Source: an uncultured Pelagibacteraceae bacterium (GTDB taxonomy: Bacteria; Pseudomonadota; Alphaproteobacteria; Pelagibacterales; Pelagibacteraceae). Taken from it: a DNA stretch of 64,000 bases. The position numbers and the translations under genes are program-made. The notes below the pieces were generated by a model. It had not been told where the DNA came from. It made no database searches and saw only the letters and a list, made by a program, of their open reading frames with translations. The stretch's first letter is position 1, and each line of letters opens with the position of its first letter. Shown here one piece after another: positions 15,990 through 35,203 of this stretch. The stretch lies in contig CACESO010000002.1 in assembly GCA_902562205.1 (NCBI GenBank), positions 62,001-126,000 of the forward strand, in the 5' to 3' direction.

Positions 15990-16030
15990 TTTAATTTTAC
16001 TATTAAATATTAAAATTCCTGATAAATTTA

Positions 16031-16069
16031 AATAATCAAAATATGTAGCTGTTTTTTACTTTGATTATT
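16031..16069. terminator. Hairpin between convergent genes
   Basis: A perfect 10-bp inverted repeat (AATAATCAAA at 16031-16040 and its complement at 16060-16069, 19-base loop) lies just after the BASS gene and overlaps the stop region of the convergent methyltransferase. The T-rich run after it on the plus strand suggests a bidirectional stop signal, but the stem is AT-rich and weak. Confidence 0.35.
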
Positions 16070-17171
16070 CTTTTATCTTAAAACCTAGAGCTAACATATT
16101 AGAAGGAAATATAATTTTTTCTTTGAATATATTTTCCCAATTATTTGGTATCTTATAATCTCCATTATTATAATTAAGTGTATTTTTTTTCATAAAAACA
16201 TTTCTACTATAAGGAACGTGAGTTTTATTCCAGATACTAAAATAAAAATTTTTTGAAATATTATTAAATAATTTGAAGTAATATTGTATAGTAGATTTAT
16301 CCATTTCATGCATACAATCTATTGCCAAAATCAGGTCTAAGCTTTTCTTATTTAATATTTCTAACTGATGTGGAAAAATAAAAGCAATATCACTATTTTC
16401 AATTTTTTCCTCTAATTTGGTTTTATCGTTTTCATCAATCAATAAAGAAATCTTTTTATTAGGGAATGCCAATTTAAGTCTTTTGTAGGAAATATATATT
16501 GCTGGAGCTATATCACAAATAATAAATTTTAAATTCTTTTCTATTGAAAGGATAGCTTCACACGTTCTTCCTGAGCCAGCACCAATTTCAAGTATCTTAT
16601 TTAATTTTGTAATATCAAATGCTTTACGTATTTTTCCATAATCCATTAAAGAAACAATCTTATCTGTAGTTACATTAATATCTTCTATTTTAATGTGAGG
16701 ATCATTAAACTCCAAATATGTATTGTCCTTTAGTTTGTTTAAATATTGAAAATTATTAGTTTTTTTAAGATTATAAAAAAGTAAATAACAAAGGTAGTTA
16801 TAACTTATGCTCTCCTCAAGAGTAAATCCATCTTGTTTTTTAAACATTTCTATGCTGTCGATCTTAAAAGGGGTGTCTTTTAAATTATTAATAGTTTCAT
16901 CGAACCACTCATCATGAAAAATTTTTGTAAAAGTGTAATAGTTTCTTGCTATCGTAGAACCGTATTTTTTTATTCCAAACATAGAAAGAGATTTATAGTT
17001 ATTTATATTTAGAACATGCCAATAATTAGAAACAAGTTTGTACGATTTAGATTTAATAAAATTATTAGTAATATATCGAAGATCATCATCTATGTCTTTT
17101 GAATTTTCTATTTTTTTCCAATACTTATCAAATCTTTTTGGAAAAAGTCTATTTATGAATTTAATTTTCAT
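16065..17171 (-). CDS. Putative sugar O-methyltransferase
   Basis: A 368-residue protein with a class I SAM-dependent methyltransferase core: ILEIGAGSGRTCEAIL near 196-211 is motif I, and ICDIAPAIYISYKRL and LDLILAIDCMHEMD follow in the right order. The N-terminal ~130 residues match the layout of the putative sugar O-methyltransferase family found in surface-polysaccharide loci. It is very rich in Lys, Asn and Ile, as is the rest of the island. It stands alone, before a tRNA-Met and the deoxysugar genes, which suggests it methylates a glycan residue. The acceptor is unknown. Confidence 0.65.
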   Translation of the reverse strand: MKIKFINRLFPKRFDKYWKKIENSKDIDDDLRYITNNFIKSKSYKLVSNYWHVLNINNYKSLSMFGIKKYGSTIARNYYTFTKIFHDEWFDETINNLKDTPFKIDSIEMFKKQDGFTLEESISYNYLCYLLFYNLKKTNNFQYLNKLKDNTYLEFNDPHIKIEDINVTTDKIVSLMDYGKIRKAFDITKLNKILEIGAGSGRTCEAILSIEKNLKFIICDIAPAIYISYKRLKLAFPNKKISLLIDENDKTKLEEKIENSDIAFIFPHQLEILNKKSLDLILAIDCMHEMDKSTIQYYFKLFNNISKNFYFSIWNKTHVPYSRNVFMKKNTLNYNNGDYKIPNNWENIFKEKIIFPSNMLALGFKIKE

Positions 17172-17308
17172 ATCTTAACGTATTTATAAATCTTGACTCA
17201 CTAAAAATATATATATTTTAACTCACATATGACACAATAAAAGGAAAAAGCAGACAAATTCTTGATTGCACAAAAATAAAAAGTATTATAGATCAACAAA
17301 AACTTTGT

Positions 17309-17385
17309 GGCGGGGTAGCTCAGTTGGTTAGAGCGCGGGACTCATAAGCCCGAGGTCAGTGGTTCGATCCCACTTCCCGCTACCA
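17309..17385 (+). tRNA. tRNA-Met (anticodon CAT)
   Basis: A 77-base cloverleaf with encoded CCA. The acceptor arm GGCGGGG pairs with TCCCGCT (G-U at the first and last pairs); the D arm is GCTC/GAGC; the anticodon loop is CTCATAA with CAT; the T arm is AGTGG/CCACT around TTCGATC. The last anticodon-stem pair is an A-G mismatch rather than the usual A-T. Sequence style fits elongator methionine tRNA; an isoleucine-CAT tRNA is less likely. It sits inside the hypervariable sugar island and may be its anchor. Confidence 0.93.
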
Positions 17386-17399
17386 TAATGTTTGCTTTG

Positions 17400-18107
17400 T
17401 TAATTTAAAATCTTTTTTAGTTTTGTCAAATTCATCGATGGATTTGGTGGAAAGATTTTTTTTCCAGACTTTTTTTTAATCTTTTTATTATACTTTTTAG
17501 CAAAATTATAAACAGACTGTGTTTTACCTCCAATGTTTATAATTCCTTTTTTATTTAGTAGTTTTGGTATCATCTTCGCAACATCTTCCTGGAAAATAAA
17601 ATTAGTTTTAACATCATAAAAAGCTGATTTATGGATAAATGGTTTTTCACACATCATAATTCTCAAGATTAATGAATTATCATACATTTTAACAGCACAC
17701 TCACCACCAAGTTTAGAAACTGCATATTTATTAATAGGATTTACAGAGTCCTCCTCTGTATAATTCCCTTTAATTCCTGGATACACATAACCAGTCGAGA
17801 AATAGATGAGCTTTATCTTAAGTCTTTCACAGATTTTAACAACGTTACATGTGCCAATTATATTCATATCAATACTCTTAGAAATTATTTTATCATGAAT
17901 GTTCATAGGTCTTGATAATCCAGCTACATGTATAAAATATTTTGGTTTTTTCAATTTAAGGTATTTTTCTAAGGATCCAAGATTTAGAATATTCATTTGA
18001 GATTTACTAGGAAAGTAGTAATTTTTTGAATCAACAGTCTTTTTTAATACAGTTGCAAATCTTCCATTTCCGCCACTTACAACAATTTTATTTATATTTT
18101 TTTTCAA
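17400..18107 (-). CDS. RmlD-like NAD(P)-dependent sugar reductase/epimerase
   Basis: A 235-residue short-chain (extended SDR) protein. VSGGNGRFATVLKK is a variant Rossmann motif, STGYVYPG carries the catalytic Ser/Thr, and YAVSK at about 133-137 gives the Tyr-Lys pair. It most resembles dTDP-4-dehydrorhamnose reductases (RmlD), which reduce the 4-keto group, but is about 50 residues shorter than usual at the C-terminus. It faces the C-methyltransferase operon divergently across 54 bases. In a deoxysugar pathway it would be the last, 4-keto-reducing step. An epimerase role is the alternative. Confidence 0.7.
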   Translation of the reverse strand: MKKNINKIVVSGGNGRFATVLKKTVDSKNYYFPSKSQMNILNLGSLEKYLKLKKPKYFIHVAGLSRPMNIHDKIISKSIDMNIIGTCNVVKICERLKIKLIYFSTGYVYPGIKGNYTEEDSVNPINKYAVSKLGGECAVKMYDNSLILRIMMCEKPFIHKSAFYDVKTNFIFQEDVAKMIPKLLNKKGIINIGGKTQSVYNFAKKYNKKIKKKSGKKIFPPNPSMNLTKLKKILN

Positions 18108-18161
18108 TTTTATTTAGATTAAATTATTTTATATATATATAAGCATATTATCAAAAGCACA

Positions 18162-19355
18162 ATGAATAAAGTATTTCTAAACTTAGGTCGTCAACCACTC
18201 GCAAATTCTTTTTTAAAAGATATTGGTAAAAACACTTTGCGTAATGAATTTTTCTACAATTTAAAAATATGCTTCAACACGAAAAATTATTTAGTTTCAA
18301 TAGATAAACCTGTTAATCCAAAAAAACAATATACTGATAAATATGCTCACAGAGCTTCCGAGTCAAAAACTATGAGATCAGCTTTTAAAAAGGTTGCAAA
18401 AAAACTTATCAAAAGATTCAGGCCAAAAAAAATTATGGAGATAGGAAGTAATGATGGTGTTTTTTTAAAAAATTTTAATAAAAAATCTGTTATAGCTGTG
18501 GAGCCGTGTAAAAATCTTGCGAGATTAACAAAAAAATTATTTAAAACATATGATGAATTTTGGAATTTAAAACTTGCTAAAAAACTAGTAAAACAAAAAA
18601 AAGGAGAAATTGATTTGATTTTCTCCGCAAATACAATCTCCCACATCCCAAATCTAAAAGAAACTTTCGAAGGGATCTTTAATATTTTATCTGATGATGG
18701 TGTTCTTGTAATAGAGGACCCTTCTTTGTTAAAAGTTCTTCAAAATAATAGCTATGACCAATTTTATGATGAGCATGTTTATGTTTTTTCTACTATATCT
18801 GTAAACAATATAGTTAAAGATTGTGGATTAAGACTTTTTGATGTTGAAAATTTACCTACTCATGGTGGATCTAATAGATATTATATTTGTAAAGAAAATG
18901 GAAAATATAAAGATACATCAAGATTAAAAAAAATTATAAAAAGCGAGATTTCTTACAAGCTTCATAAAATAAAAAGTTATTTAGAATTTTCAAAACGAGT
19001 TAATATATCAAAAAGAAAATTATTTAATTTAATAAAAAAATTAAAAAAAAAGAATAAGAAAATTATAAGCTATGGGGCGACATATAAATCTACAACAGTT
19101 TTCAATTATTGTAATTTTAATTCAAAGATGATTGACTATGTTACTGACACTACACATAATAAACAAGGGAAGTATACACCAGGGACACATATTAAAATAA
19201 TTTCACCAGAATATGGAATGAATGATACTGTGGATTATGCTTTTTTGGGTGCTTGGAATTTTAAAAAAGAAATTTTTAAAAAAGAAAAAAATTTTTTAAA
19301 AAGAGGTGGAAAGTTTATTACACATGTTCCAAGAGTAAAGACTCTCACTAAATGA
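18162..19355 (+). CDS. Sugar C-methyltransferase (TylCIII/KijD1/TcaB9-like), degraded zinc domain
   Basis: SAM-dependent enzyme that adds a methyl to carbon 3 of a dTDP-4-keto-2,6-dideoxysugar. It has 397 residues: LNLGRQPLANSFL at the N-terminus, SAM motif MEIGSNDG at 92-99, catalytic YDEHVY at 202-207 (the Tyr, Glu and His known in TcaB9), LPTHGGSNRY at 231-240, and a complete C-terminal Rossmann half (SYGATYKSTTVFNY). The family's N-terminal zinc site needs four cysteines; the first CxxC is absent and the second is reduced to one Cys (C37), with no cysteine encoded in frame upstream. It overlaps the next gene by 4 bases. Confidence 0.85.
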   Translation: MNKVFLNLGRQPLANSFLKDIGKNTLRNEFFYNLKICFNTKNYLVSIDKPVNPKKQYTDKYAHRASESKTMRSAFKKVAKKLIKRFRPKKIMEIGSNDGVFLKNFNKKSVIAVEPCKNLARLTKKLFKTYDEFWNLKLAKKLVKQKKGEIDLIFSANTISHIPNLKETFEGIFNILSDDGVLVIEDPSLLKVLQNNSYDQFYDEHVYVFSTISVNNIVKDCGLRLFDVENLPTHGGSNRYYICKENGKYKDTSRLKKIIKSEISYKLHKIKSYLEFSKRVNISKRKLFNLIKKLKKKNKKIISYGATYKSTTVFNYCNFNSKMIDYVTDTTHNKQGKYTPGTHIKIISPEYGMNDTVDYAFLGAWNFKKEIFKKEKNFLKRGGKFITHVPRVKTLTK

Positions 19356-20122
19356 TAAATAAAAATGTAATAAAATGGCTAAGTAATCAGAGAAGAAAAC
19401 AACTTTTGAGTGTTAAAAAAAAAGATTTATCAAAATTAACTAAGTGGGTTTATGGAAAAAATGAAATTTATCACAAAAGTAAAAAATTTTTTAAAATAGT
19501 TGGTATAAGAATTAACTCAAATTTTTATAGTAAAAAAAGATGGGATCAACCAATAATAGTTCAAAATGAAATTGGTATTTTGGGAATTATCAAAAATATC
19601 AAAACTAAGAAATATTTACTCCAAGCAAAAGTAGAACCAGGAAATATTAACAAAATTCAAATCTCACCCACAGTTCAAGCAACAAGAAGTAATTATTCAA
19701 GAATTCATGGAGGAAAAACAATTCCATTTCTAAATCATTTTAAAAAGAAAAATAAACATTTCTCACTTCAAACTGAACAAGCTTTTAGGTATTATAATAA
19801 AAAAAATTCAAATATCGTTTCCTATGTTTCAAAAAAAATTGATTTAAAACCAAAATTTAGATGGTTTTCTAAAATTGAAATTTTGAATTTATTAAAAAAA
19901 AAAAATCTAATTAACATGGATACATTATCTGTTTTTTCATCCTTTATAAAAAAGAGAAAAACTGATTTTCCATTAAATAACAAAAAAGCAATAACTAAGT
20001 GGAAAAATTCCCTAAATAAAAAATATTTCCTTAAAAATAAAATTATAAATCTTAATTTGATTAAGGATTGGAATTTTACTAAAAAAAAATTTCTCATAAA
20101 ACAAATAATTATTTTTCAGTAA
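19352..20122 (+). CDS. NDP-hexose 2,3-dehydratase, N-terminal half (frame broken)
   Basis: First repeat of an EvaA/TylX3/SpnO-type enzyme, which removes the C2 hydroxyl of a dTDP-4-keto-6-deoxyhexose, the committing step to 2,6-dideoxysugars. Highly specific motifs are present: WDQP at 64-67, QAKVEPGN at 91-98, SPTVQATRSNY at 105-115 and NLINMDT at 185-191. This family has two such repeats (about 450-490 residues), but this frame stops at 20122 after a run of nine A (20081-20089). The second repeat continues in another frame, so the gene is split by an apparent single-base indel. The stop here is not a natural end. Confidence 0.82.
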   Translation: MINKNVIKWLSNQRRKQLLSVKKKDLSKLTKWVYGKNEIYHKSKKFFKIVGIRINSNFYSKKRWDQPIIVQNEIGILGIIKNIKTKKYLLQAKVEPGNINKIQISPTVQATRSNYSRIHGGKTIPFLNHFKKKNKHFSLQTEQAFRYYNKKNSNIVSYVSKKIDLKPKFRWFSKIEILNLLKKKNLINMDTLSVFSSFIKKRKTDFPLNNKKAITKWKNSLNKKYFLKNKIINLNLIKDWNFTKKKFLIKQIIIFQ

Positions 20123-20193
20123 TTGGAATAAAAGTTAAGACTAACAAAAGAGAAATAACCAATTGGTGTCAGCCAATTATTGAAGGATCAAAA

Positions 20194-20613
20194 ATGTCCT
20201 TTGTTGGGTATTTGATTAAAAAATTTAGAAATACAAATCATTATTTATGCAGATATATTCTAAAGCCAGGTTCAAAAGCAGGTACATACACTTGCTCAGT
20301 CAATACCTCCCAATTTATCGGTTATAAAAAAAGTAAAGATTTAACAAATTTTCAAAAAAAATTGATTTCTAAATTTTTTATAAATTCAAAAGATAAAATT
20401 TACGACAATATTTTATCCAACGAAGGAGGAAGATTTTATCATTCACAAATTAAATATATGGCATGTAAATTGAATAAAGATCAAGAAGTTGAGTTACCAG
20501 AATCATATATATGGTTATCTCAAAATCAAATAATTGATTTAATTCATAAGCAAAAAATTGACATAGAAGCAAGATTGCTTTTTGGTATTATAAACTTTAA
20601 GGAAACAATTTAA
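20194..20613 (+). CDS. NDP-hexose 2,3-dehydratase, C-terminal half (frame broken)
   Basis: Second repeat of the same 2,3-dehydratase. The first in-frame ATG is at 20194, but the homologous reading begins further upstream: from about 20090 this frame gives FSVIGIKVKTN and NWCQPIIEGS, the start of repeat two, which is out of frame with the N-terminal part. LSNEGGRFYHSQIKYMA near the end matches the family's SEEGGRFYHARNRY signature. One extra A in the run at 20081-20089 would join both halves into about 420 residues. The next gene starts at the base after its stop, as expected for an intact operon. As a free fragment it is unlikely to be active. Confidence 0.72.
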   Translation: MSFVGYLIKKFRNTNHYLCRYILKPGSKAGTYTCSVNTSQFIGYKKSKDLTNFQKKLISKFFINSKDKIYDNILSNEGGRFYHSQIKYMACKLNKDQEVELPESYIWLSQNQIIDLIHKQKIDIEARLLFGIINFKETI

Positions 20614-21525
20614 TTGAAAATTTTAATTTTAGGTTACTCAAATATTATAAAAAAAAGAGTTTTAAGTGTTTTAAAAGAAAAAAAAATTAAAATATTTATA
20701 GCCTCAAAATCATATAAAAAAAAAATTCCTGGTATTAGAGGACAATTTCAATCTTATGAACAAGCATTAAAAGAATGTAAACCCAATATTGTTTATATTT
20801 CTCTGCCTAATTCAAAACATTACGAATGGGCCAAAAAATCTTTAAATTGTAAATACAATACTATAGTCGACAAACCTATCACCTCTAATATGAAACAGTT
20901 GGATGAATTAATAAAGCTATCAAAAAAAAATAAGAAGCTTTTAGTTGAGTCCACTTTTTTTAATTATCACATTCAAATAAAAAAAATAATCAGAATGTAT
21001 AAAAATGATGCATATAAAAAAATTAATGCAAAATTTGTAATTCCGAAACCAGATAAAAAAAGTATCTTAATGTCTAAAAAACTTCAAGGTGGTGTCTTAA
21101 TGGATATGGGACCTTATATTTCATCAATACCAAGATTATTTAATTTAAAAGAATTAATAAAAAAAAAAATATTAGTAAAAAAAAATAAAGATAAACTAAT
21201 TATGTCGATCAAATTTTCAATGAATTTTAAAGAAGGGGATTATTATGGTTTCTTTAAATTCGGTGGGAAATATAAAAATCAAATCATAATAACCAATAAA
21301 AAAACAAAAAGTTATATAACAAGAGTCTTTTCACCCCCCTATGATGAAAACTTAATTTTAAAGTCAATTTCAAAAAAAAAAGAAAAAATCATTAAATTTA
21401 AAAAAGATAATTCCTTTAGAAATTTTTTTGCAGAGGTTTTAAAAATTACAATAGGAAAAAAATTTGATTTTTATTATAAAAGAATGAGACATGACTCAGT
21501 TTTTAGAACCAACTTAACAAAATAA
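20614..21525 (+). CDS. Gfo/Idh/MocA oxidoreductase, candidate dTDP-sugar 3-ketoreductase
   Basis: A 303-residue NAD(P)-dependent oxidoreductase. The N-terminus MKILILGYSNIIKKRVL is the Rossmann opening; VDKPIT carries the Lys-Pro catalytic motif of the family, and LQGGVLMDMGPY is the usual second-domain signature. The start is TTG at 20614, directly after the 2,3-dehydratase stop. In known 2,6-dideoxysugar pathways the 3,4-diketo product of a 2,3-dehydratase is unstable and must be reduced at C3 by such an enzyme (KijD10, SpnN type), so its position fits exactly. It is slightly shorter than typical members (about 330). Confidence 0.78.
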   Translation: MKILILGYSNIIKKRVLSVLKEKKIKIFIASKSYKKKIPGIRGQFQSYEQALKECKPNIVYISLPNSKHYEWAKKSLNCKYNTIVDKPITSNMKQLDELIKLSKKNKKLLVESTFFNYHIQIKKIIRMYKNDAYKKINAKFVIPKPDKKSILMSKKLQGGVLMDMGPYISSIPRLFNLKELIKKKILVKKNKDKLIMSIKFSMNFKEGDYYGFFKFGGKYKNQIIITNKKTKSYITRVFSPPYDENLILKSISKKKEKIIKFKKDNSFRNFFAEVLKITIGKKFDFYYKRMRHDSVFRTNLTK

Positions 21526-21526
21526 A

Positions 21527-22045
21527 TTATTTAAATAGCATATCTAAACTTTTTGCGTTTTTATCTTTTATACTTATATTTAGTATTTTAGCTGGCCATT
21601 TTATCTTTATTTTTGGATCGTTATATAGAAGTGATCTCTCATCTTTCGGTGATCTGTATTCAGTACAACTATAACAAATAATATTTTCCTTTTTAAGTGT
21701 TAGAAAGCCATGAGCAAATCCTGGTGGTATAAAAACCGATCTACAATTTTTTTCACTCAGTTTTATTGAAAAATATTTTCTGTAAGTTTTTGATTTTTTT
21801 CGCAAGTCTACCGCTACATCAAATATTTCTCCTTTTAAAACTGAAATTAATTTTCCTTGAGGTTTTTTAACTTGAAAATGCAAACCTCTTAAAACATTTT
21901 TTTTTGAAACAGATAATATTTGAAATTTAAATTTTTTTTTTATTAATTTTTCTAAAACTAATTCCCTTAAATATCCTCTTTTATCTTGGTGTTTAATACC
22001 ATTTAAAATTAAAAGACCTTTGAATTTTGTTTTTTTTATTTTCAT
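21527..22045 (-). CDS. rmlC: dTDP-4-dehydrorhamnose 3,5-epimerase family protein
   Basis: Cupin-fold epimerase, 172 residues. The catalytic His is in VLRGLHFQ, followed by KPQGKLISVLKGEIFDVAVDLR, the second motif IPPGFAHGFLTL, and the Tyr-bearing ICYSCTEYRSP; all are standard for RmlC. It epimerises C3 and C5 of dTDP-4-keto-6-deoxyglucose, or only C5 in dideoxysugar variants such as TylK and EvaD, changing a D- into an L-sugar. The gene is last of a tight rmlB-rmlA-rmlC operon (gaps of 0 to -4 bases) and converges with the ketoreductase at a 1-base gap. Confidence 0.92.
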   Translation of the reverse strand: MKIKKTKFKGLLILNGIKHQDKRGYLRELVLEKLIKKKFKFQILSVSKKNVLRGLHFQVKKPQGKLISVLKGEIFDVAVDLRKKSKTYRKYFSIKLSEKNCRSVFIPPGFAHGFLTLKKENIICYSCTEYRSPKDERSLLYNDPKIKIKWPAKILNISIKDKNAKSLDMLFK

Positions 22046-22915
22046 TTAAGAAATTAATTTTTTCAGGTAATTTGAATAATCACACTTTCCATAAAATTGA
22101 ATTGCATTCAAAATTTCTTTTTTTCCAATCCATCTATTATTAAGAGCTATTTCCTCAAGGCAAGCAATTTTAAAACCTTGTCTATTTTCTATCGCAGAAA
22201 CAAAAGCGCTGGTTTTATAAAAGTCCTCTATAGAACCAGTATCCAGCCATGCACCACCTCTTCCCAAAATATCGGATGTAAGTTTTTTTTTATTTAAATA
22301 AATTTTTAACAAATCAGTAATTTCTAATTCATTTCTCAAAGATGGTTTAAGTTTTTTTGTATATTCAATTACTTTTTTATCAAAAAAATACAAACCCGTT
22401 ATTGCGAGATCAGAAATATATTTTTTGGGTTTTTCTTTTAAAGAAAGAATTTTACCAGTTTTAGATATTTTTGCTACACCAAACAATTCAGGTTTAATAA
22501 CCTTATGAAGAATTACTTTTGCACCATTTTTAAGTTTTGTACAATTGATTAATTTTGAAGTTAAATTCTGACCATAAAAAAAATTATCTCCCAATATTAA
22601 TGCGACGTTTTTATTGTTTATAAATTTTTCTCCTAGCAAAAACGCATCAGGTAAACCTTTAGGAGAGCTTTGCTCTTTATATGATATATTAATACCAAGT
22701 CGCTTCCCATCCGGTAAAATTTTTTTATATTGGTTTAATTGTCCTTTGTTAACTATTATCAAAATATCTCTTATTTTTGCCAACATTAAAATTGACAATG
22801 GATAAAAAATTAAGGGTTTATCGTATATAGGTAGCAATTGCTTATTTACTGCTTTTGTTAATGGACTCATTCGAGTTCCCATTCCCCCAGCTAAAATAAT
22901 TGCCTTTTTAATCAT
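22046..22915 (-). CDS. rmlA: Glucose-1-phosphate thymidylyltransferase
   Basis: Makes dTDP-glucose from dTTP and glucose-1-phosphate, the first step of dTDP-deoxysugar synthesis; 289 residues, normal. The nucleotide-binding loop is AGGMGTRMSPLTKAVNKQLL (family usual GGSGTRLxPLT), with the metal-binding Asp in LILGDNFFYG and EKPKKYISDLAITGLYFFD in the sugar-binding region. Its ATG overlaps the rmlB stop by 4 bases and rmlC follows at once, so the three are co-transcribed. Together with the 2,3-dehydratase operon it supplies the precursor of the predicted sugar. Confidence 0.95.
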   Translation of the reverse strand: MIKKAIILAGGMGTRMSPLTKAVNKQLLPIYDKPLIFYPLSILMLAKIRDILIIVNKGQLNQYKKILPDGKRLGINISYKEQSSPKGLPDAFLLGEKFINNKNVALILGDNFFYGQNLTSKLINCTKLKNGAKVILHKVIKPELFGVAKISKTGKILSLKEKPKKYISDLAITGLYFFDKKVIEYTKKLKPSLRNELEITDLLKIYLNKKKLTSDILGRGGAWLDTGSIEDFYKTSAFVSAIENRQGFKIACLEEIALNNRWIGKKEILNAIQFYGKCDYSNYLKKLIS

Positions 22916-23934
22916 TTTATTATTCCAAGTCTCTTTGTGATATCCTTTTTTTTTAATGTTGTATAGTATTTCATATTTTCAAAGTACCAATTAAATGTAT
23001 TTTCTAAACCTTTTTTTAAATTGACTTTAGATTTCCATTTAAGTTTGCTTAATATTTTTTTACTGTCTAAAGCATAGCGTAAGTCATGCCCTGGTCTATC
23101 TCTGACAAATTTAATTTTTACATTTTTACCTATTTTAAATTTTTTTTTTGCAATATTGATTAATTGATTTGCAATGTCCAAGTTGCTGCTATTTATATTA
23201 GATCCAATATTGTAAAAATCTCCTTTTATTCCATTTTGTAAAACTTTAAATAAGGCTGCACAATGATCATCTACAAATATCCATTCTCTTGAATTTTCTC
23301 CGTTTCCGTAGAGTGGAATGGGTTTATTATTTATAATATTATAAATTAGTTTTGGAATTAGTTTTTCTGGGTGCTGATGAGGACCATAATTATTTGAGCA
23401 ATTTGTTATAACAGCGTTAAGATTGTATGTTCTTATATAAGAATATACCAAGTGATCAGATGAAGCCTTTGAGGCTGCATAAGGAGAGCTAGGTTTGTAA
23501 GGATCAGTTTCTTTGCTCCGACCTTTTAATACATCTCCATAAACCTCATCAGTCGAAATATGGATTAGTTTAGCTTTCTTATTTTTTTTTGAGTATTCTT
23601 TAAATAACTCTAACAAATTAAACACACCAACTATATTGCTTTTTATAAATTCAGCAGGACCATCAATTGATCTATCAACATGCGTTTCTGCTGCTAGATT
23701 AAATATGGCAAAGGGTTTATGTAAGTTCAAAATTTTTTTAAACTTGGATCTATTATTTATGTCTAATTTAATAAATTTATAATTTTTTTTATTAGAAAAA
23801 TCTCTTGTATTATAAAAGTTTGAGGCATAGCTAACTTTATCAATATTAACAACAAAATAATTTTTCTTTATTAGTAGTTTTATTAAATTACTACCAATAA
23901 ATCCTAAACCACCAGTTACAATTATTTTTTTCAT
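22912..23934 (-). CDS. rmlB: dTDP-glucose 4,6-dehydratase
   Basis: Converts dTDP-glucose to dTDP-4-keto-6-deoxyglucose with bound NAD; 340 residues, normal. Extended SDR fold: IIVTGGLGFIGSNLI at the N-terminus, NLAAETHVDRSIDGP, STDEVYGD with the catalytic Thr-Asp-Glu, and YAASKASSDHLV with Tyr and Lys; all active-site residues are present. It is first of the rmlBAC operon and is divergent from the glycosyltransferase at 23984, with a T-rich 49-base gap between them. Its product is the branch point to rhamnose or to the 2,6-dideoxysugar predicted from the neighbours. Confidence 0.95.
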   Translation of the reverse strand: MKKIIVTGGLGFIGSNLIKLLIKKNYFVVNIDKVSYASNFYNTRDFSNKKNYKFIKLDINNRSKFKKILNLHKPFAIFNLAAETHVDRSIDGPAEFIKSNIVGVFNLLELFKEYSKKNKKAKLIHISTDEVYGDVLKGRSKETDPYKPSSPYAASKASSDHLVYSYIRTYNLNAVITNCSNNYGPHQHPEKLIPKLIYNIINNKPIPLYGNGENSREWIFVDDHCAALFKVLQNGIKGDFYNIGSNINSSNLDIANQLINIAKKKFKIGKNVKIKFVRDRPGHDLRYALDSKKILSKLKWKSKVNLKKGLENTFNWYFENMKYYTTLKKKDITKRLGIIK

Positions 23935-23983
23935 TACTTTTTTTTTTACAATAATAGTTATTTTAAGTATACTTCATTCTCAC

Positions 23984-24850
23984 ATGGAATTTACAAGTAA
24001 TAATCTAACCTTCGTAATAGTTACATTTAATAGTAGAAAAGTAATCTATGATTGCTTAAATTCTCTACCAAAGGATTTTAATAAATTAATAGTTGAAAAT
24101 TCATCTGACGAAGAATTAAAAAAAGAATTAGAGCAAAATTATGATAAAACTGAGGTGATTTTGTCAGAGAATGTAGGTATGGGGGCTGGAAATAATCTTG
24201 GCATTATTAAATCAAATACAAAATACGTTTATGTGTTAAATCCAGATGTTTTGTTGAAACATGACACTATACAAAATATAAATAATTCAATTTCTAAATT
24301 AGAAAACTTTGCGATATTATCACCTTTGTCAGATAATCCGCAATTTCCAAATTATAGATTAAATTTTGATAAAACACAGAAAAGTAATGACAAAATAATT
24401 TATGAGGTTGAAGAAATTGATGGCTATTCGATGATAATTAACAAAGATTATTTTAATAATAGCGTTTTCTTTGATGAAAAATTTTTTATGTACTTAGAAA
24501 ATGTTGACTTATGTTTAAGAACAAAAAAAAAAGGTGGGAAACTATTTATTATTACTAATTCCAAGGTTCATCATCTCGGAGCTCGGGCTGTTGATGACAA
24601 ACACAGTGAAGAGATAGAACTTTCAAGAAACTGGCATTGGATGTGGTCAAAACTTTATTTTAATAAAAAACATAAGGGAATTTTCGTTTCATCATTACTA
24701 GGATTAACTAGTTTAGTAGGAAATTTTCTAAAATATTCTATCTGCTTTATCACTTTTAACAAAAAAAAAAATATTTATAGGACTAGAATGTCAGGCATTA
24801 TTAATGCTTTTTTAGGTAGGCAATCTTGGTATAGACCAAAAATAAATTAG
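23984..24850 (+). CDS. Glycosyltransferase family 2, rhamnosyltransferase-like
   Basis: A 288-residue GT-A glycosyltransferase. VIVTFNSRKVIYDCLNSL, ENVGMGAGNNLGI and VLNPDVLL are the nucleotide-sugar binding motifs; FFMYLENVDLCLR and VHHLGARA are typical of rhamnosyl- and deoxysugar transferases such as WbbL. Position beside rmlBAC suggests it attaches the dTDP-deoxysugar to a lipopolysaccharide or other surface glycan. Its C-terminus holds a hydrophobic stretch (VSSLLGLTSLVGNFL) that may bind the membrane. It overlaps the convergent apt gene by 4 bases. Donor and acceptor are not proven. Confidence 0.82.
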   Translation: MEFTSNNLTFVIVTFNSRKVIYDCLNSLPKDFNKLIVENSSDEELKKELEQNYDKTEVILSENVGMGAGNNLGIIKSNTKYVYVLNPDVLLKHDTIQNINNSISKLENFAILSPLSDNPQFPNYRLNFDKTQKSNDKIIYEVEEIDGYSMIINKDYFNNSVFFDEKFFMYLENVDLCLRTKKKGGKLFIITNSKVHHLGARAVDDKHSEEIELSRNWHWMWSKLYFNKKHKGIFVSSLLGLTSLVGNFLKYSICFITFNKKKNIYRTRMSGIINAFLGRQSWYRPKIN

Positions 24851-25374
24851 TGACCCGGAAATTCAATTAAGTTTTCTACTTTAAAACCTTTTTTTATTAA
24901 TCTATCAGATCCACCTAAATCAAATAAGTTTATCACAAAAATAAATGCTCCAACCTTTCCCTTTGAAATTTCAATTAATTTTGAAGCTGCTTCAGCTGTT
25001 CCACCAGTAGCAATTAAATCATCAATAATTAAAACTGTATCGTCTTTGTTTATAGAGTCTTTATGCACTTCAATAGTCGCAGTTCCATACTCTAACTCAA
25101 AATCAATAGAGTGAGTTTCTGCAGGCAATTTATTTTTTTTTCTTAACATTATAAACGGTTTTTTGAGAATATATGAAACAGCGGATGCAAATACAAAACC
25201 TCTTGATTCGATAGCTGCTATTTTATTAAATTTAAACTTTTTAGATCTTTCAACTATTTGATTAATTGTCTCTTCGAAAGCTTTTTCATTTTTTATCAAA
25301 GTGGTAATGTCTCTAAATAAAATACCCTTCTTTGGATAATTAGGTATAGATCTAATAAATTTTTTTAAGTCCAT
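24847..25374 (-). CDS. apt: Adenine phosphoribosyltransferase
   Basis: Salvages adenine with PRPP to AMP; 175 residues, normal. The PRPP loop VLIIDDLIATGGTAEA is diagnostic, with the N-terminal IRSIPNYPKKGILFRDIT and ESRGFVFA also typical. It is divergent from mtnP across about 40 bases. MtnP releases adenine from methylthioadenosine, so the two products form a natural pair and probably share a regulatory region. The closest source of that methylthioadenosine, the SpeD-SpeE fusion, is 4.4 kb away in the same direction as mtnP. Confidence 0.96.
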   Translation of the reverse strand: MDLKKFIRSIPNYPKKGILFRDITTLIKNEKAFEETINQIVERSKKFKFNKIAAIESRGFVFASAVSYILKKPFIMLRKKNKLPAETHSIDFELEYGTATIEVHKDSINKDDTVLIIDDLIATGGTAEAASKLIEISKGKVGAFIFVINLFDLGGSDRLIKKGFKVENLIEFPGH

Positions 25375-32137: not shown

Positions 32138-33214
32138 TATAAGTAAATAACTTTTTATGATTTCTTGCCAAAGAAATTTTTTTGCATTTTCTTCTGCATT
32201 TTTTCCTAAAACTTTAAATTTATTATTCTGCAATATATCGACTAAACTTTGATAGATTTCATCTAAATTGTTTCCATCACAAAGTAGGCCAGTTTCATTA
32301 TTGACAATTGCGTCAGACGCACCACCAATTTTTCCACCTATAGATGGAACTCCATATTGAGCAGCCTCAACGTAGACAATTCCAAATCCTTCTACAGATT
32401 TTTTATAAGATATTGATGGCATTACAAAAACATTTGAATTTTTTAAATAAGAGTTTTTTTCATCTTTAGATAAATTTTTCAGAAATAAAACATTTCTTTC
32501 AAGTTTTAATTCTTTGATAAGTTTTTCTTGAGACACCAAAGTGTCACCTTGTCCTATACAAATGTAAATGATGTTTGGATATATTTCCTTTAAATTTCTT
32601 AAAGACATTATTATTTTCTCGTGATTTTTTCTCTTATCAAATCTAGCAACAGTAATTAGTCTTGGTTCCTTTCCCTTAAGTTTTTTTAATATTTTTTCCT
32701 CTATTTTTGGATTTACATCTTCTTTTGGAAAAACCCCCGGGTTAATAACCTTTATTTTTTCTTCATTTACACCAATTTCAATACCAAGACTTTTAGTGAA
32801 ATTTGAATTTGCAATGACATGATCGCAATTATTTAATACTCTAACAACTCTTTTATTTAAAAAAGAATTTTTTTTATGATTAATCTCTTTGGAGTGAATA
32901 AGACATATTTTTCTAATTTTAGTATTAATATTTTCTAAACTTTTCCAGTGGTCGGAGATGATATTTTTAACTTTAGTATTCCTCTGTAAGTAATTATTAA
33001 TTAATGAAGCTTTTCTAAATTTTCTAAAGATTTTTGGCCCTCCAACTCTTTCAATTGAAAATGATAAGTCTTCATCAAATTTTTCCTGTTGATAGTGCTC
33101 ATCAGCAAATACTTTAACCATCATGTGTTCCGATAATGATTTTGTAAGCCCAAACATAAGATTTTGCATACCCCCAACATCAGGTGGAAAATTTCTTGTG
33201 ATAATTAAATTCAT
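32126..33214 (-). CDS. Glycosyltransferase family 4
   Basis: A 362-residue GT-B retaining glycosyltransferase. TVARFDKRKNHEKII is the usual donor-side entry, and SVEGFGIVYVEAAQYGVPSIGG carries the E-x7-E motif that binds the nucleotide-sugar phosphate. The N-terminus MNLIITRNFPPDVGGMQN is the family's acceptor-side opening. It shares 1 base with the thioredoxin-like gene upstream (stop and start overlap), so they form a small operon. It probably works on lipopolysaccharide or another envelope glycan with the neighbouring GT9. The sugars are unknown. Confidence 0.86.
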   Translation of the reverse strand: MNLIITRNFPPDVGGMQNLMFGLTKSLSEHMMVKVFADEHYQQEKFDEDLSFSIERVGGPKIFRKFRKASLINNYLQRNTKVKNIISDHWKSLENINTKIRKICLIHSKEINHKKNSFLNKRVVRVLNNCDHVIANSNFTKSLGIEIGVNEEKIKVINPGVFPKEDVNPKIEEKILKKLKGKEPRLITVARFDKRKNHEKIIMSLRNLKEIYPNIIYICIGQGDTLVSQEKLIKELKLERNVLFLKNLSKDEKNSYLKNSNVFVMPSISYKKSVEGFGIVYVEAAQYGVPSIGGKIGGASDAIVNNETGLLCDGNNLDEIYQSLVDILQNNKFKVLGKNAEENAKKFLWQEIIKSYLLILKN

Positions 33215-33785: not shown

Positions 33786-34298
33786 ATGTTTTACGATTTG
33801 GAAAATAAAAAACCAAAAAACTCTGGCGAAAATTGGGTAGCTCCCAATGCTGTTATTATTGGTGATGTAACATTAGATAAAAATACAAGTGTTTGGTTTA
33901 ATGCAACCTTAAGAGGTGACATTGAAAATATTCATATAGGTGAGGGTTCAAACGTTCAGGATGGCTGTGTGTTACACACTGATCCAGGTTGTCCTTTAAA
34001 GGTCGGAAAAAATGTAACCATTGGACATTTAGTAATGCTTCATGGATGTACAATAGGGGACAATAGTTTAATTGGAATTGGTGCAGTGATCCTCAATAAA
34101 GCAAAGATAGGAAAAAACTGTATAATAGGCGCCAAGGCTTTGATCACTGAAAATAAAGAGATTCCGGATAACTCTTTAGTTGTTGGATCTCCAGGAAAAA
34201 TTATAAGACAAGTGACAGAAGAAGAAAAAAAGGCAGTTTTTGAAAACACTAAACACTATCAAGATAATTGGAAAAAATATTCTAAATCTATTTTTTAA
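33786..34298 (+). CDS. Gamma carbonic anhydrase family protein
   Basis: A 170-residue left-handed beta-helix protein. The three metal-binding histidines of the family appear in GCVLHTDPG and IGHLVMLHGC, with hexapeptide repeats (VGKNVTIGH, IGDNSLIGIGAVI, IGKNCIIGAKALI) before and after. Members (YrdA, CaiE, Cam-like) may have carbonic anhydrase activity or none. Its last ~18 codons are repeated, with mostly synonymous changes, 200 bases downstream (34442-34496), pointing to recombination at this gene's end. Confidence 0.88.
   Translation: MFYDLENKKPKNSGENWVAPNAVIIGDVTLDKNTSVWFNATLRGDIENIHIGEGSNVQDGCVLHTDPGCPLKVGKNVTIGHLVMLHGCTIGDNSLIGIGAVILNKAKIGKNCIIGAKALITENKEIPDNSLVVGSPGKIIRQVTEEEKKAVFENTKHYQDNWKKYSKSIF
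34242..34296 (+). repeat. Direct repeat, copy 1: 3' end of gamma carbonic anhydrase gene
   Basis: The last ~18 codons plus stop of the gene (ENTKHYQDNWKKYSKSIF). A near-identical copy starts exactly 200 bases on, at 34442. I count about 4-5 differing bases over 55. Confidence 0.85.
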
Positions 34299-34354
34299 TA
34301 AAAAATTAAAGTAACTATTAAATTTATTTTATACTTCTAAAATAAATTTAAGTT

Positions 34355-34429
34355 ATGGCATCATATTTATTTATATTTATATCCTTACTAATGGCTAGCT
34401 ATTTTTTAAATTTCCTTTGGTTGAATTAA
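34355..34429 (+). CDS. Possible 24-residue membrane peptide
   Basis: ATG to TAA encoding a 24-residue hydrophobic peptide (MASYLFIFISLLMASYFLNF, then LWLN), enough for one membrane span. It lies between the two copies of the carbonic anhydrase 3' end. No Shine-Dalgarno is evident, and such peptides arise easily by chance in T-rich DNA. Confidence 0.25.
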   Translation: MASYLFIFISLLMASYFLNFLWLN

Positions 34430-34441
34430 TTGAAAACTAAG

Positions 34442-34496
34442 GAAAATACTAAACATTATCAAGATAATTGGAAAAGGTATTCTAAATCTATTTTTT
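34442..34496 (+). repeat. Direct repeat, copy 2: remnant 3' end of a diverged carbonic anhydrase gene
   Basis: This copy still reads ENTKHYQDNWKRYSKSIF and a stop. Its differences from copy 1 are silent (Asn AAC/AAT, His CAC/CAT) or conservative (Lys to Arg), so it looks like the tail of a once-functional allele from another lineage rather than a random duplication. It overlaps the last codons of the next gene on the minus strand by about 9 bases. Confidence 0.8.
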
Positions 34497-35165
34497 AACA
34501 ATAAAATTAAAACCACTACATTGTTTAAAATGAATTTTATTGCTTGAAAGTTTATCTAATAGAATATTTATCTTTGTTTTTTCAATATATTTTTTCCATT
34601 TCTCACCAAATAAAATACTTAAAGGTGCGGAAATTCTTCCCCGTACAGGAAATAATTCAACATAACTAAAGTCTTTAAACAAATATGCTAACGCATCTTT
34701 TGAAAATCTAAAGTAATCCTGATATTTTAAATCATGAGGAGCATGGTACTGAAATAAATATGGCACGTAACCATATAATATACCACCATTTTTGAGCATC
34801 TTATTTAAGTTAGCTATGGCAGAAGTTGGATCGTAGACATGCTCTAAAACAGCGATACAGATAATTTTATCGTACTTACTTTCCAAACCACTGATATCAG
34901 AACAAATGTCACATATTATATCAGGATAATCACCAAAATCATTAACATCTAAAGTTTCTAAATTTTTGGACTTTATTTTTTTATATTTATCCCTCATAGC
35001 CATCCCTAAGTCTAAAATACGATCAGATTGGCTTATCTCTTCCAATATTCTATCTCTAAAATCTTTTTGATTGTTTAAATAAAAATCATTAATTTTTGTT
35101 TTATTAATTATATCTATTAATTTTTTGTTGGTTTGGTTTGGATTTCCAAGAATTTTTTTCATCAA
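34488..35165 (-). CDS. Class I SAM-dependent methyltransferase
   Basis: A 225-residue methyltransferase. ILDLGMAMRDKYKKIK is a variant of motif I, DVNDFGDYPDIICDIC follows, and IICIAVLEHVYDPTSAIANL is the Methyltransf_11-type motif with the conserved His. LKNGGILYGYVPYLFQYH gives the late strand. The small-molecule or glycan acceptor is unknown. Its stop codon lies inside the second copy of the duplicated carbonic anhydrase tail, so this gene probably arrived in the same recombination event. It has no operon partner. Confidence 0.78.
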   Translation of the reverse strand: MMKKILGNPNQTNKKLIDIINKTKINDFYLNNQKDFRDRILEEISQSDRILDLGMAMRDKYKKIKSKNLETLDVNDFGDYPDIICDICSDISGLESKYDKIICIAVLEHVYDPTSAIANLNKMLKNGGILYGYVPYLFQYHAPHDLKYQDYFRFSKDALAYLFKDFSYVELFPVRGRISAPLSILFGEKWKKYIEKTKINILLDKLSSNKIHFKQCSGFNFIVKK

Positions 35166-35203
35166 TAATCATATTAATTTTATATTAAGAAATAAAGATC
35201 TAT

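Follow-up and report, generated by a model that had tools for sequence, protein, structure and literature searches.

Pathways for dTDP-activated 2,6-dideoxy-3-C-methyl sugars of the L-mycarose type are those of actinomycetes (tylosin, erythromycin, mithramycin), and in pathways of the dTDP-vancosamine, epivancosamine and kijanose type EvaA acts together with an aminotransferase and a C-methyltransferase; mycarose- and vancosamine-type sugars are so far known from actinomycete antibiotics. SAR11 bacteria are among the most abundant cell types of the sea, and little is known about their surface sugars. The Coxiella LPS contains virenose, a 6-deoxy-3-C-methyl-gulose, the C-3 methyl group of which is said to be added by a C-methyltransferase of this kind within a pathway proposed in silico (PMC3539893). 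SAR11 and Prochlorococcus carry phosphonate clusters with capsule genes, proposed to affect phages and grazers (PMC8931226). A SAR11 paper on the sugars discussed here was not found among the open-licence papers listed, a weak negative.

The window is a stretch of 64,000 nucleotides from an uncultured Pelagibacteraceae bacterium, and its segment from tRNA-Met to apt is probably a cassette open to exchange, whose enzymes would make a dTDP-activated branched deoxysugar destined for a surface glycan. Like the actinomycete mycarose-type pathways, it has homologues for the RmlA/RmlB start and the EvaA-type 2,3-dehydratase as well as for 3-ketoreduction, C-3 methylation, 5-epimerisation and 4-ketoreduction; unlike them, it belongs to a streamlined marine alphaproteobacterium, occupies an exchangeable tRNA-Met/apt site without an antibiotic assembly line and encodes a C-methyltransferase (CMT) without zinc cysteines and a short RmlD-like protein. 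The vancosamine and kijanose type is resembled by sister SAR11 cassettes, which place a putative sugar aminotransferase of the DegT family directly after the two-domain dehydratase, whereas the window's own version has no aminotransferase. As a Gram-negative LPS sugar, virenose has its likeness in SAR11 cassettes without the dehydratase; in contrast to the window's cassette, its pathway involves no 2-deoxygenation (PMC3539893). The phosphonate clusters are likewise surface-glycan gene sets in abundant plankton, but differ in chemistry, and the word 'dideoxy' does not occur in the main text (PMC8931226).

Gene content between tRNA-Met and apt

Profile searches (Pfam, NCBIfam) recovered every enzyme family that a first-pass annotation had assigned to the segment (Table 1), and the two facing operons it described are present, 18162-21525 on the plus strand meeting 21527-23934 on the minus strand. 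The very high AT content also holds, as the four 2-kb bins of 16001-24000 have a G+C of 0.229-0.263, the lowest of the window, but the several glycosyltransferases come down to a single one (GT2) within 17400-24850. Of the 38 named loci with a dehydratase, 22 show a match to this GT2, several loci being cut by contig ends. As to the borders, a scan of 20 related loci detected tRNA-Met (CAT) in 18, and the gene which we take, by our own reading of the sequence, to be apt has an identity of 80-98% in those six retrieved relatives that show it (L032, L036-L040).

Table 1. Features of the tRNA-Met/apt segment (window positions)
Feature	Position	Strand	Evidence
tRNA-Met (CAT)	17309..17385	+	ARAGORN; one border of exchanged segment
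RmlD-like short SDR, presumed 4-ketoreductase, 235 aa, TTG start	17400..18107	-	PF04321 1.8e-23; YxxxK in sequence
C-3 methyltransferase (CMT), KijD1/TcaB9/MtmC type, 397 aa	18162..19355	+	PF08484 1.6e-48
First ORF of the 2,3-dehydratase (256 aa), whole of domain A	19352..20122	+	PF03559 7.4e-53
A run where dehydratase frame is lost	20081..20089	+	one-base length difference vs relatives
2,3-dehydratase second part, domain B, other frame	20090..20613	+	ORF list: 20194-20613, PF03559 8.4e-15
Gfo/Idh/MocA 3-ketoreductase, KijD10-like, 303 aa, TTG start	20614..21525	+	KijD10 is best PDB match
RmlC-type epimerase, 172 aa	21527..22045	-	TIGR01221 169.6 bits, cut-off 155.75
RmlA, glucose-1-phosphate thymidylyltransferase	22046..22915	-	TIGR01207 356.6 bits, cut-off 360.65
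RmlB, dTDP-glucose 4,6-dehydratase	22912..23934	-	TIGR01181 410 bits, cut-off 365
Family 2 glycosyltransferase (GT2), candidate sugar transferase	23984..24850	+	PF00535 1e-10
apt, conserved, other border of exchanged segment	24847..25374	-	80-98% identity in relatives

The CMT, annotated as a KijD1/TcaB9-type enzyme with a YDEH motif, which is indeed present, is placed among dideoxysugar C-3 methyltransferases, and not with unrelated methyltransferases only, by sequence (KijD1 9e-69, TcaB9 1.4e-65 and MtmC 2.4e-56 in the PDB) and by predicted fold alike, with query-length TM scores of 0.91-0.95 against these three (0.95 at an rmsd of 1.6 for KijD1) and 0.35 for the next fold listed. By alignment, TcaB9 Tyr76, His181, Tyr222, Glu224 and His225, mutated residues whose numbers were taken from PDB titles, correspond to Y61, H161, Y202, E204 and H205 of the window, numbered by hand, which are invariant in 15 SAR11 CMTs. 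The zinc domain of C-3 sugar methyltransferases has four cysteines as paired CxxC ligands; in the window CMT this N-terminal domain (PF08421) scores 28 bits, below the cut-off of 31.3, and none of the 37 CMTs linked to a dehydratase has a CxxC among its first 80 residues, while KijD1 shows one CxxC pair in the alignment with the window CMT. Residue 63, two positions past Tyr61, is His in every one of these 37; of the 41 others, 40 have Tyr or Phe and one has a gap, and Tyr is found in six of six viral CMTs. The association of His with the dehydratase is not a general rule, since KijD1, which acts on a 2-deoxy sugar, has Tyr at this position.

The Gfo/Idh protein is a putative KijD10-type 3-ketoreductase, KijD10 (3rbv) being its top PDB match, weak at 1.6e-12; the Lys of the KP motif and the Tyr of the DxGxY motif align, presumably the catalytic K102/Y186 of KijD10. 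Of the RmlD-like 4-ketoreductase in the first-pass annotation, the PF04321 SDR stands, but the protein is short (234-257 aa across 12 relatives) and reaches 79 bits against the RmlD equivalog cut-off of 224 (TIGR01214), and we class it as an RmlD-like SDR with a presumed 4-ketoreductase role. It is the top PF04321 match genome-wide at 82 bits, all others scoring around 60 bits or lower, and by this profile search none of the genome's proteins is clearly a canonical RmlD.

On the best reading, these enzymes would make a dTDP-2,6-dideoxy-3-C-methylhexose that goes to a surface glycan. RmlA and RmlB would form dTDP-4-keto-6-deoxyglucose, and loss of its C-2 oxygen through the 2,3-dehydratase would leave a 3,4-diketo-2,6-dideoxy sugar. 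C-3 would next be reduced by the KijD10-like enzyme and receive its methyl group, adjoining the 4-keto group, from the CMT. The RmlC-type enzyme would then invert C-5, acting only as a 5-epimerase because C-3 is already quaternary at that step. Reduction at C-4 by the RmlD-like enzyme would complete a 2,6-dideoxy-3-C-methyl-L-hexose of mycarose, axenose or olivomycose type, to be transferred by GT2. The order of reactions, the stereochemistry and the transfer to a surface glycan are what we infer from these assignments. The pathway is supported in that the PDB and fold matches of the CMT and the dehydratase are specific to dideoxysugar enzymes and KijD10 is the best match for the Gfo/Idh protein; the weak KijD10 match, the short RmlD-like protein and the missing zinc cysteines count against it, as do the frame-shifted dehydratase and a split ketoreductase in the relative L064.

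A plain rhamnose pathway was rejected in view of the lack of a clear canonical RmlD, the single RmlC (the sole PF00908 match in the genome) and the conserved EvaA/KijD1/KijD10 unit. A rhamnose pathway with accessory enzymes, leading to L-rhamnose or a similar sugar that has not been 2-deoxygenated, would agree with RmlB and RmlC lying over and RmlA nearly at the curated cut-offs for rhamnose enzymes, but is extremely improbable: besides the RmlD result, the EvaA-, KijD1- and KijD10-type genes are kept as one unit, and in a sample of the phylum all 397 other genomes lack the dehydratase.

The interrupted 2,3-dehydratase

The dehydratase had been read as one ORF at 19352-20613, which is incorrect, as the first ORF and the frame ending at 20613 differ and switch at the A run. 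Strong homology to 2,3-dehydratases is nevertheless evident across the two ORFs, so that both PF03559 domains of the EvaA type are present; the protein of an intact relative matches only EvaA in the PDB (1.3e-62). Aligned via this relative, the equivalents of EvaA E139 and E190, pocket A residues according to PMC8987622, both lie within the first ORF. All 21 related loci of the ketoreductase type have the gene at full length (412-422 aa), whereas the window's frame is broken. Thus, each family of the pathway is represented, as annotated, but an intact copy of every step is lacking in the sequence as read, and the genome as assembled may be unable to complete the pathway.

That the one-base break is an error of amplification, sequencing or assembly and the pathway of the cell is intact stands, in our estimate, at even chances. 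The break falls in an A run, and the alignment to L061 over 3,601 bases has no other gap. Read in its own frame, the domain B part still resembles its relatives: the 173 codons after the break show 11 silent differences and 11 that change the amino acid, similar on this crude count to 17 and 23 in the 304 codons of the Gfo/Idh gene next door. A generally error-ridden sequence, as distinct from a single error, was rejected as the cause, since the nearest genome differs by only 14 gaps over approximately 63 kb aligned. Against an error speak this otherwise clean window, in which the dehydratase break is the sole uncompensated frame break found against that genome (ORFs of at least 100 aa, 61 of 65 fully aligned, gaps up to 30 bases from ORF ends left out), and two A runs of equal or greater length in the same gene, 19415-19423 and 19894-19905, which are in frame.

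A real break, with 2-deoxygenation being lost or switched by slippage at the A run and a 6-deoxy-3-C-methyl sugar or nothing as product, is conceivable at a chance somewhat below even. In L064, among the three nearest CMT relatives of the window, the ketoreductase is split into parts of 183 and 105 aa, here too through a single base in an A run, and relatives live with cassettes at the same site that have neither dehydratase nor ketoreductase; moreover, a proportion of transcripts or ribosomes could regain the frame through slippage on A runs. However, L061 and L062, the closest relatives, keep both genes intact, and because the CMTs of the two pathway types form separate lineages, the window CMT may be unable to use a substrate with a 2-hydroxyl.

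Cassette types in SAR11 relatives

The gene set recurs in other Pelagibacteraceae, syntenic at the same tRNA-Met/apt site, where other relatives carry a cassette without the dehydratase or one in which an aminotransferase stands where the ketoreductase would be; a third type, with a half-size, one-domain dehydratase, is located elsewhere. Seven single-contig genomes that were listed individually had no dehydratase. Cassettes skipping 2-deoxygenation would yield a 6-deoxy-3-C-methyl sugar. For those with the aminotransferase (top PDB match 7b0d at 3e-98, QdtB 3.5e-71, transaminase 2oga 2e-61), a 3-amino-2,3,6-trideoxy-3-C-methyl sugar of the vancosamine type is predicted. Exactly one of the two enzymes adjoins the dehydratase in 37 of the 38 dehydratase-bearing named loci (ketoreductase 28, aminotransferase 9), the exception being cut by a contig end, and none of 42 loci without dehydratase has a Gfo/Idh match within 6 kb (BLAST at 1e-8).

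In the CMT tree, the lineages with dehydratase and ketoreductase, dehydratase and aminotransferase, and one-domain dehydratase and ketoreductase stand apart, with one change each, while the tree of the flanking genes mtnP and apt requires at least three changes for the ketoreductase type. As CMT lineages follow the cassette type and the flanking genes partly mix the types, cassettes appear to have been exchanged between SAR11 relatives. Part of the pattern is plain descent, since the types are more clustered on the flank tree than expected by chance (5 changes against a shuffled mean of 8.5, as low in 2 of 200 shuffles).

No source for a phage origin of the window's cassette was found in INPHARED or IMG/VR: INPHARED gave weak CMT matches in six records (24-30% identity) and no one-domain dehydratase, and IMG/VR contained six CMT and nine one-domain dehydratase loci, but not the two-domain dehydratase.

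Use of the sugar and its meaning for SAR11

Decoration of the surface and escape from phages, as already suggested in the first-pass annotation, are indirectly suggested by the general setting: outside the cassette the genome encodes LpxC and a Wzy_C protein, and the cassette has its GT2. Against this, the Wzx flippase family PF01943 was not found in this genome, which is 89% complete. Attachment to a small secreted metabolite, as in actinomycetes, would fit the nearest characterised enzymes, which stem from antibiotic clusters, and the plasmid records with a dehydratase match, 83 of 85 being actinomycete, but is very unlikely. The only ORFs listed for the 7.4-kb island besides the sugar genes and GT2 overlap these on the opposite strand, hence no polyketide or peptide assembly genes, and the swapping of cassettes resembles the pattern of surface antigens.

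Beyond the first-pass annotation, the exchange site, the amino-sugar alternatives, the one-domain-dehydratase version elsewhere and the split dehydratase have come to light. With a nearly even chance, SAR11 alters its surface antigens via cassette swaps at one site among three C-3-methylated sugars, including the mycarose and vancosamine types, and the one-domain dehydratase of a further lineage is a homodimer with both catalytic glutamates, a living state from before the EvaA duplication. One-domain dehydratases could reveal how the two-domain EvaA fold arose, and the natural swaps, with or without dehydratase and with ketoreductase or aminotransferase, define enzyme pairs for direct tests of specificity. 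For phage resistance at the level of strains, a recurrent site which swaps rare-sugar gene sets is a concrete candidate that can be put to the test.

Enzymes of the cassette and the broken dehydratase gene

The segment between tRNA-Met and apt, situated in a genome of 1.03 Mb (26 contigs, 89% complete; the window corresponds to G000:C2:62001-126000), is AT-rich, with a G+C content of 0.229-0.263 in 2-kb bins, the lowest of the window. It encodes eight predicted functions, namely an RmlD-like SDR (-), a C-3 sugar methyltransferase (CMT, +), a 2,3-dehydratase (+), a Gfo/Idh protein (+), RmlC (-), RmlA (-), RmlB (-) and a GT2 glycosyltransferase (+).

Features of the cassette and its flanks, and relative loci (L-numbers) with variant cassettes
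Feature	Position or loci	Placement	Remark
tRNA-Met	17309-17385	one edge of segment	
CMT	18162-19355 (+)	within segment	
2,3-dehydratase	19352-20613 (+)	within segment	not an open frame
apt	24847-25374	other edge of segment	name by reading only
NanM-type putative sugar O-methyltransferase	16065-17171	outside segment, beside tRNA-Met	2.3e-25
Transporter-like gene (BASS) and regulator-like gene (HTH)		outside segment	both labels by reading only
mtnP, mtnA		outside segment, with apt	names by reading only
One-domain (235 aa) dehydratase in otherwise similar cassettes	L089, L090, L092, L095-L097, L106	other sites	
Aminotransferase directly after two-domain dehydratase	L083, L085-L088, L091, L119, L124, L128		e.g. 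L119:10464-11627

In the PDB, the CMT matches KijD1 (9e-69), TcaB9 (1.4e-65) and the D-mycarose 3-C-methyltransferase MtmC (2.4e-56), and all 10 distinct PDB sequences matched are one of these enzymes. Its predicted structure (pLDDT 93.6) resembles KijD1 (TM up to 0.95, rmsd 1.6), TcaB9 (0.94) and MtmC (0.95), with other folds at a query-length TM of 0.35 or below among the 50 matches listed of 942 (E up to 0.001). The intact dehydratase of the relative locus L037 has EvaA as its sole PDB match (1.3e-62), and E139 and E190 of EvaA, catalytic according to PMC8987622, align with E95 and E142, both inside the first dehydratase ORF of the window. Nearest to the Gfo/Idh protein is the 3-ketoreductase KijD10 (1.6e-12). 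RmlC, which alone in the genome matches PF00908, belongs to the ordinary RmlC type (2e-41, compared with 1e-13 for the EvaD entry PCZA361.16), and the short RmlD-like protein is the top PF04321 match of the genome (82 bits), ten others, likely other SDRs, scoring about 60 bits or less. The gene identifications of the first-pass annotation hold; its claim that every step of a dTDP-2,6-dideoxy-3-C-methylhexose pathway is present stands for the enzyme families, which are all encoded, but not for the dehydratase gene, which as assembled is broken. The NanM-type enzyme beside tRNA-Met could O-methylate the same sugar to a cladinose-like product; among the 80 named loci it is matched in L061, L062 and L125 only, and L049 shows a distant match to such an enzyme.

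The dehydratase frame shifts at a run of A (20081-20089). Alignment of 18001-21600 with the relative locus L061 (AG-430-J04) covers 3,601 bases at 96.0% identity with a lone one-base gap, in this A run, and the dehydratase is full-length (412-422 aa) in all 21 related ketoreductase-type loci. Over the whole window, comparison with the nearest genome compared (G223) gave 14 gaps in about 63 kb, with 61 of 65 predicted ORFs of at least 100 aa fully aligned. Leaving aside gaps 30 bases or less from the end of an ORF, and 34244-35202, for which there was no alignment, the dehydratase break is the one frame change in these ORFs that is left uncompensated; two further ones, at 32668 and 32677, cancel out. 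By a crude count, 11 silent and 11 changing differences fall in the 173 codons after the break; the 241 codons ahead of it have 11 and 9, the 304 codons of the next gene 17 and 23. Since the sequence 3' of the break is without decay, the break is either recent or an error. L064, whose CMT is among the three nearest to that of the window, likewise has a split ketoreductase (L064:7376-8300), divided into ORFs of 183 and 105 aa by a one-base difference in a run of A, so that the same module is damaged in two of four (window, L061, L062 and L064).

Four cassette types

Among the best 80 of 187 loci from a genome scan by CMT alignment, 73 with titles naming Pelagibacteraceae, Pelagibacterales or Pelagibacter, a dehydratase is near the CMT in 38 but not in the other 42. 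Next to the dehydratase, 28 loci have a Gfo/Idh ketoreductase (split in L064 and truncated by the end of the contig in L063 and L073) and nine an aminotransferase of the DegT family; L081 ends inside the dehydratase. The aminotransferase cassettes predict, from gene content, a vancosamine-type 3-amino-3-C-methyl sugar. The best PDB relatives of the aminotransferase are 7b0d (3e-98), 7n63, QdtB (3.5e-71) and, lower down, the transaminase 2oga (2e-61), presumably DesV; three aminotransferases scored below every curated NCBIfam cut-off, and the amino position is therefore not fixed by family models. L091, counted in this group, has an extra weak Gfo/Idh match, located beyond the CMT. No Gfo/Idh match was found within 6 kb in any of the 42 dehydratase-less loci (BLAST, 1e-8), and seven of them hold weaker aminotransferase-family matches, of 77-317 bits versus 592-801 in the true group.

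In seven cassettes at other sites, a one-domain dehydratase of 235 aa adjoins a Gfo/Idh enzyme, which in L089, the one examined, matches KijD10 best (8.6e-20). A profile of 12 one-domain proteins (seven SAR11, five viral) matches EvaA alone in the PDB, its first domain with 165 and its second with 115 bits, and both catalytic glutamates are kept (E124, E177). Structure prediction gave a model of moderate confidence (pLDDT 74.5), whose top fold match is EvaA (query-length TM 0.56-0.60, rmsd 13), with Nudix hydrolases next. PMC8987622 treats pocket B of EvaA as the inactive remnant of a gene duplication, and a putatively active enzyme with one domain, in a pathway that otherwise looks alike, would be expected on that view. 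In L041 and L047-L051, dehydratases with one domain (235-253 aa) lie no more than about 4 kb from a Gfo/Idh gene; the 20-kb stretch gives no CMT match, which points to a further putative pathway. Putatively viral IMG/VR contigs (L147-L155) encode one-domain 2,3-dehydratases of 245-276 aa.

CMT lineages and apparent cassette exchange

On a CMT tree of 86 rows, a single change each accounts for the two-domain ketoreductase (22 rows with the window; support 80/92), two-domain aminotransferase (8; 98/91) and one-domain ketoreductase groups (7; 100/100), while the 41 dehydratase-less rows need three and the six viral rows two. Jointly, the five groups require 5 changes (minimum 4; shuffled mean 38.5). 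L128, with too short a CMT, and L080 and L081, at contig ends, were left out or ungrouped, and the long branches flagged (L140, L143, L111) all lie outside the SAR11 groups. Types are intermingled on a tree of mtnP and apt built from the 21 loci that have the two genes: well-supported branches force three changes for the ketoreductase group, and a clade of six (100/100) unites four dehydratase-less cassettes with two that carry a dehydratase. Even there, the types cluster beyond chance (5 changes, against a shuffled mean of 8.5 and a value this low in 2 of 200 shuffles), and close relatives thus often carry the same type. The site, as judged by at least one common flank gene, is shared by 16 of the 22 ketoreductase-type rows, 3 of the 8 of aminotransferase type and 10 of the 41 without a dehydratase, and by none of the seven one-domain or six viral rows; of 20 loci scanned, 18 have a tRNA-Met, the remaining two being one-domain loci. 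Because of the mixing on the flank tree and the common site across types, whole cassettes appear to be passed from one genome to another and to insert at the tRNA-Met/apt site. As CMT lineage tracks the predicted substrate more closely than host background, the pathway reading is supported, and these swaps in relatives strengthen the main inference of the first-pass annotation, a dideoxy C-methyl sugar.

At residue 63 of the window CMT, two positions after the equivalent of TcaB9 Tyr76, 37 of 37 dehydratase-linked CMTs have His, 40 of the 41 others have Tyr or Phe (one gap) and all six viral ones have Tyr. The dehydratase-linked CMTs fall into two distinct lineages, so no more than two or three independent events lie behind the pattern. 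The Asp of the YDEH motif is invariant in the 37, replaced by Asn (28) or Cys (8) or kept (5) in the 41 others, and present in all six viral proteins.

Distribution and probable surface role

Of 397 Pelagibacterales genomes, 26 carry PF03559 (10 with the two-domain form, the window counted, and 16 with the one-domain form, by open-frame length); in a 398-genome phylum sample it is confined to the window's own genome. PF08484, the CMT family, is by contrast widespread, with matches in 229 of 397 genomes of the order and 98 of 398 of the phylum sample (both counts include the window). Plasmid records with a dehydratase match are actinomycete in 83 of 85 cases, the other two being Serratia and Hoeflea. 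CMTs of the same family, 38-44% identical, lie amid several RmlB-like genes in Pacearchaeota and Omnitrophota MAGs (L135, L137, L138, L140). L088, a contig binned as Chloroflexi with an aminotransferase-type cassette, is probably misbinned; its CMT groups inside the SAR11 ones.

The cassette holds one glycosyltransferase, and elsewhere the genome encodes LpxC and one Wzy_C protein; a PF01943 flippase was not found in this genome, of which about 11% may be missing. We infer that the sugar is most likely used on the cell surface, where phage escape would, by analogy, be a plausible role. The enzyme families of the cassette are all already known. What sets the system apart is its host, the apparent exchange of the cassette for one of vancosamine type, and the existence of a version with a one-domain dehydratase.
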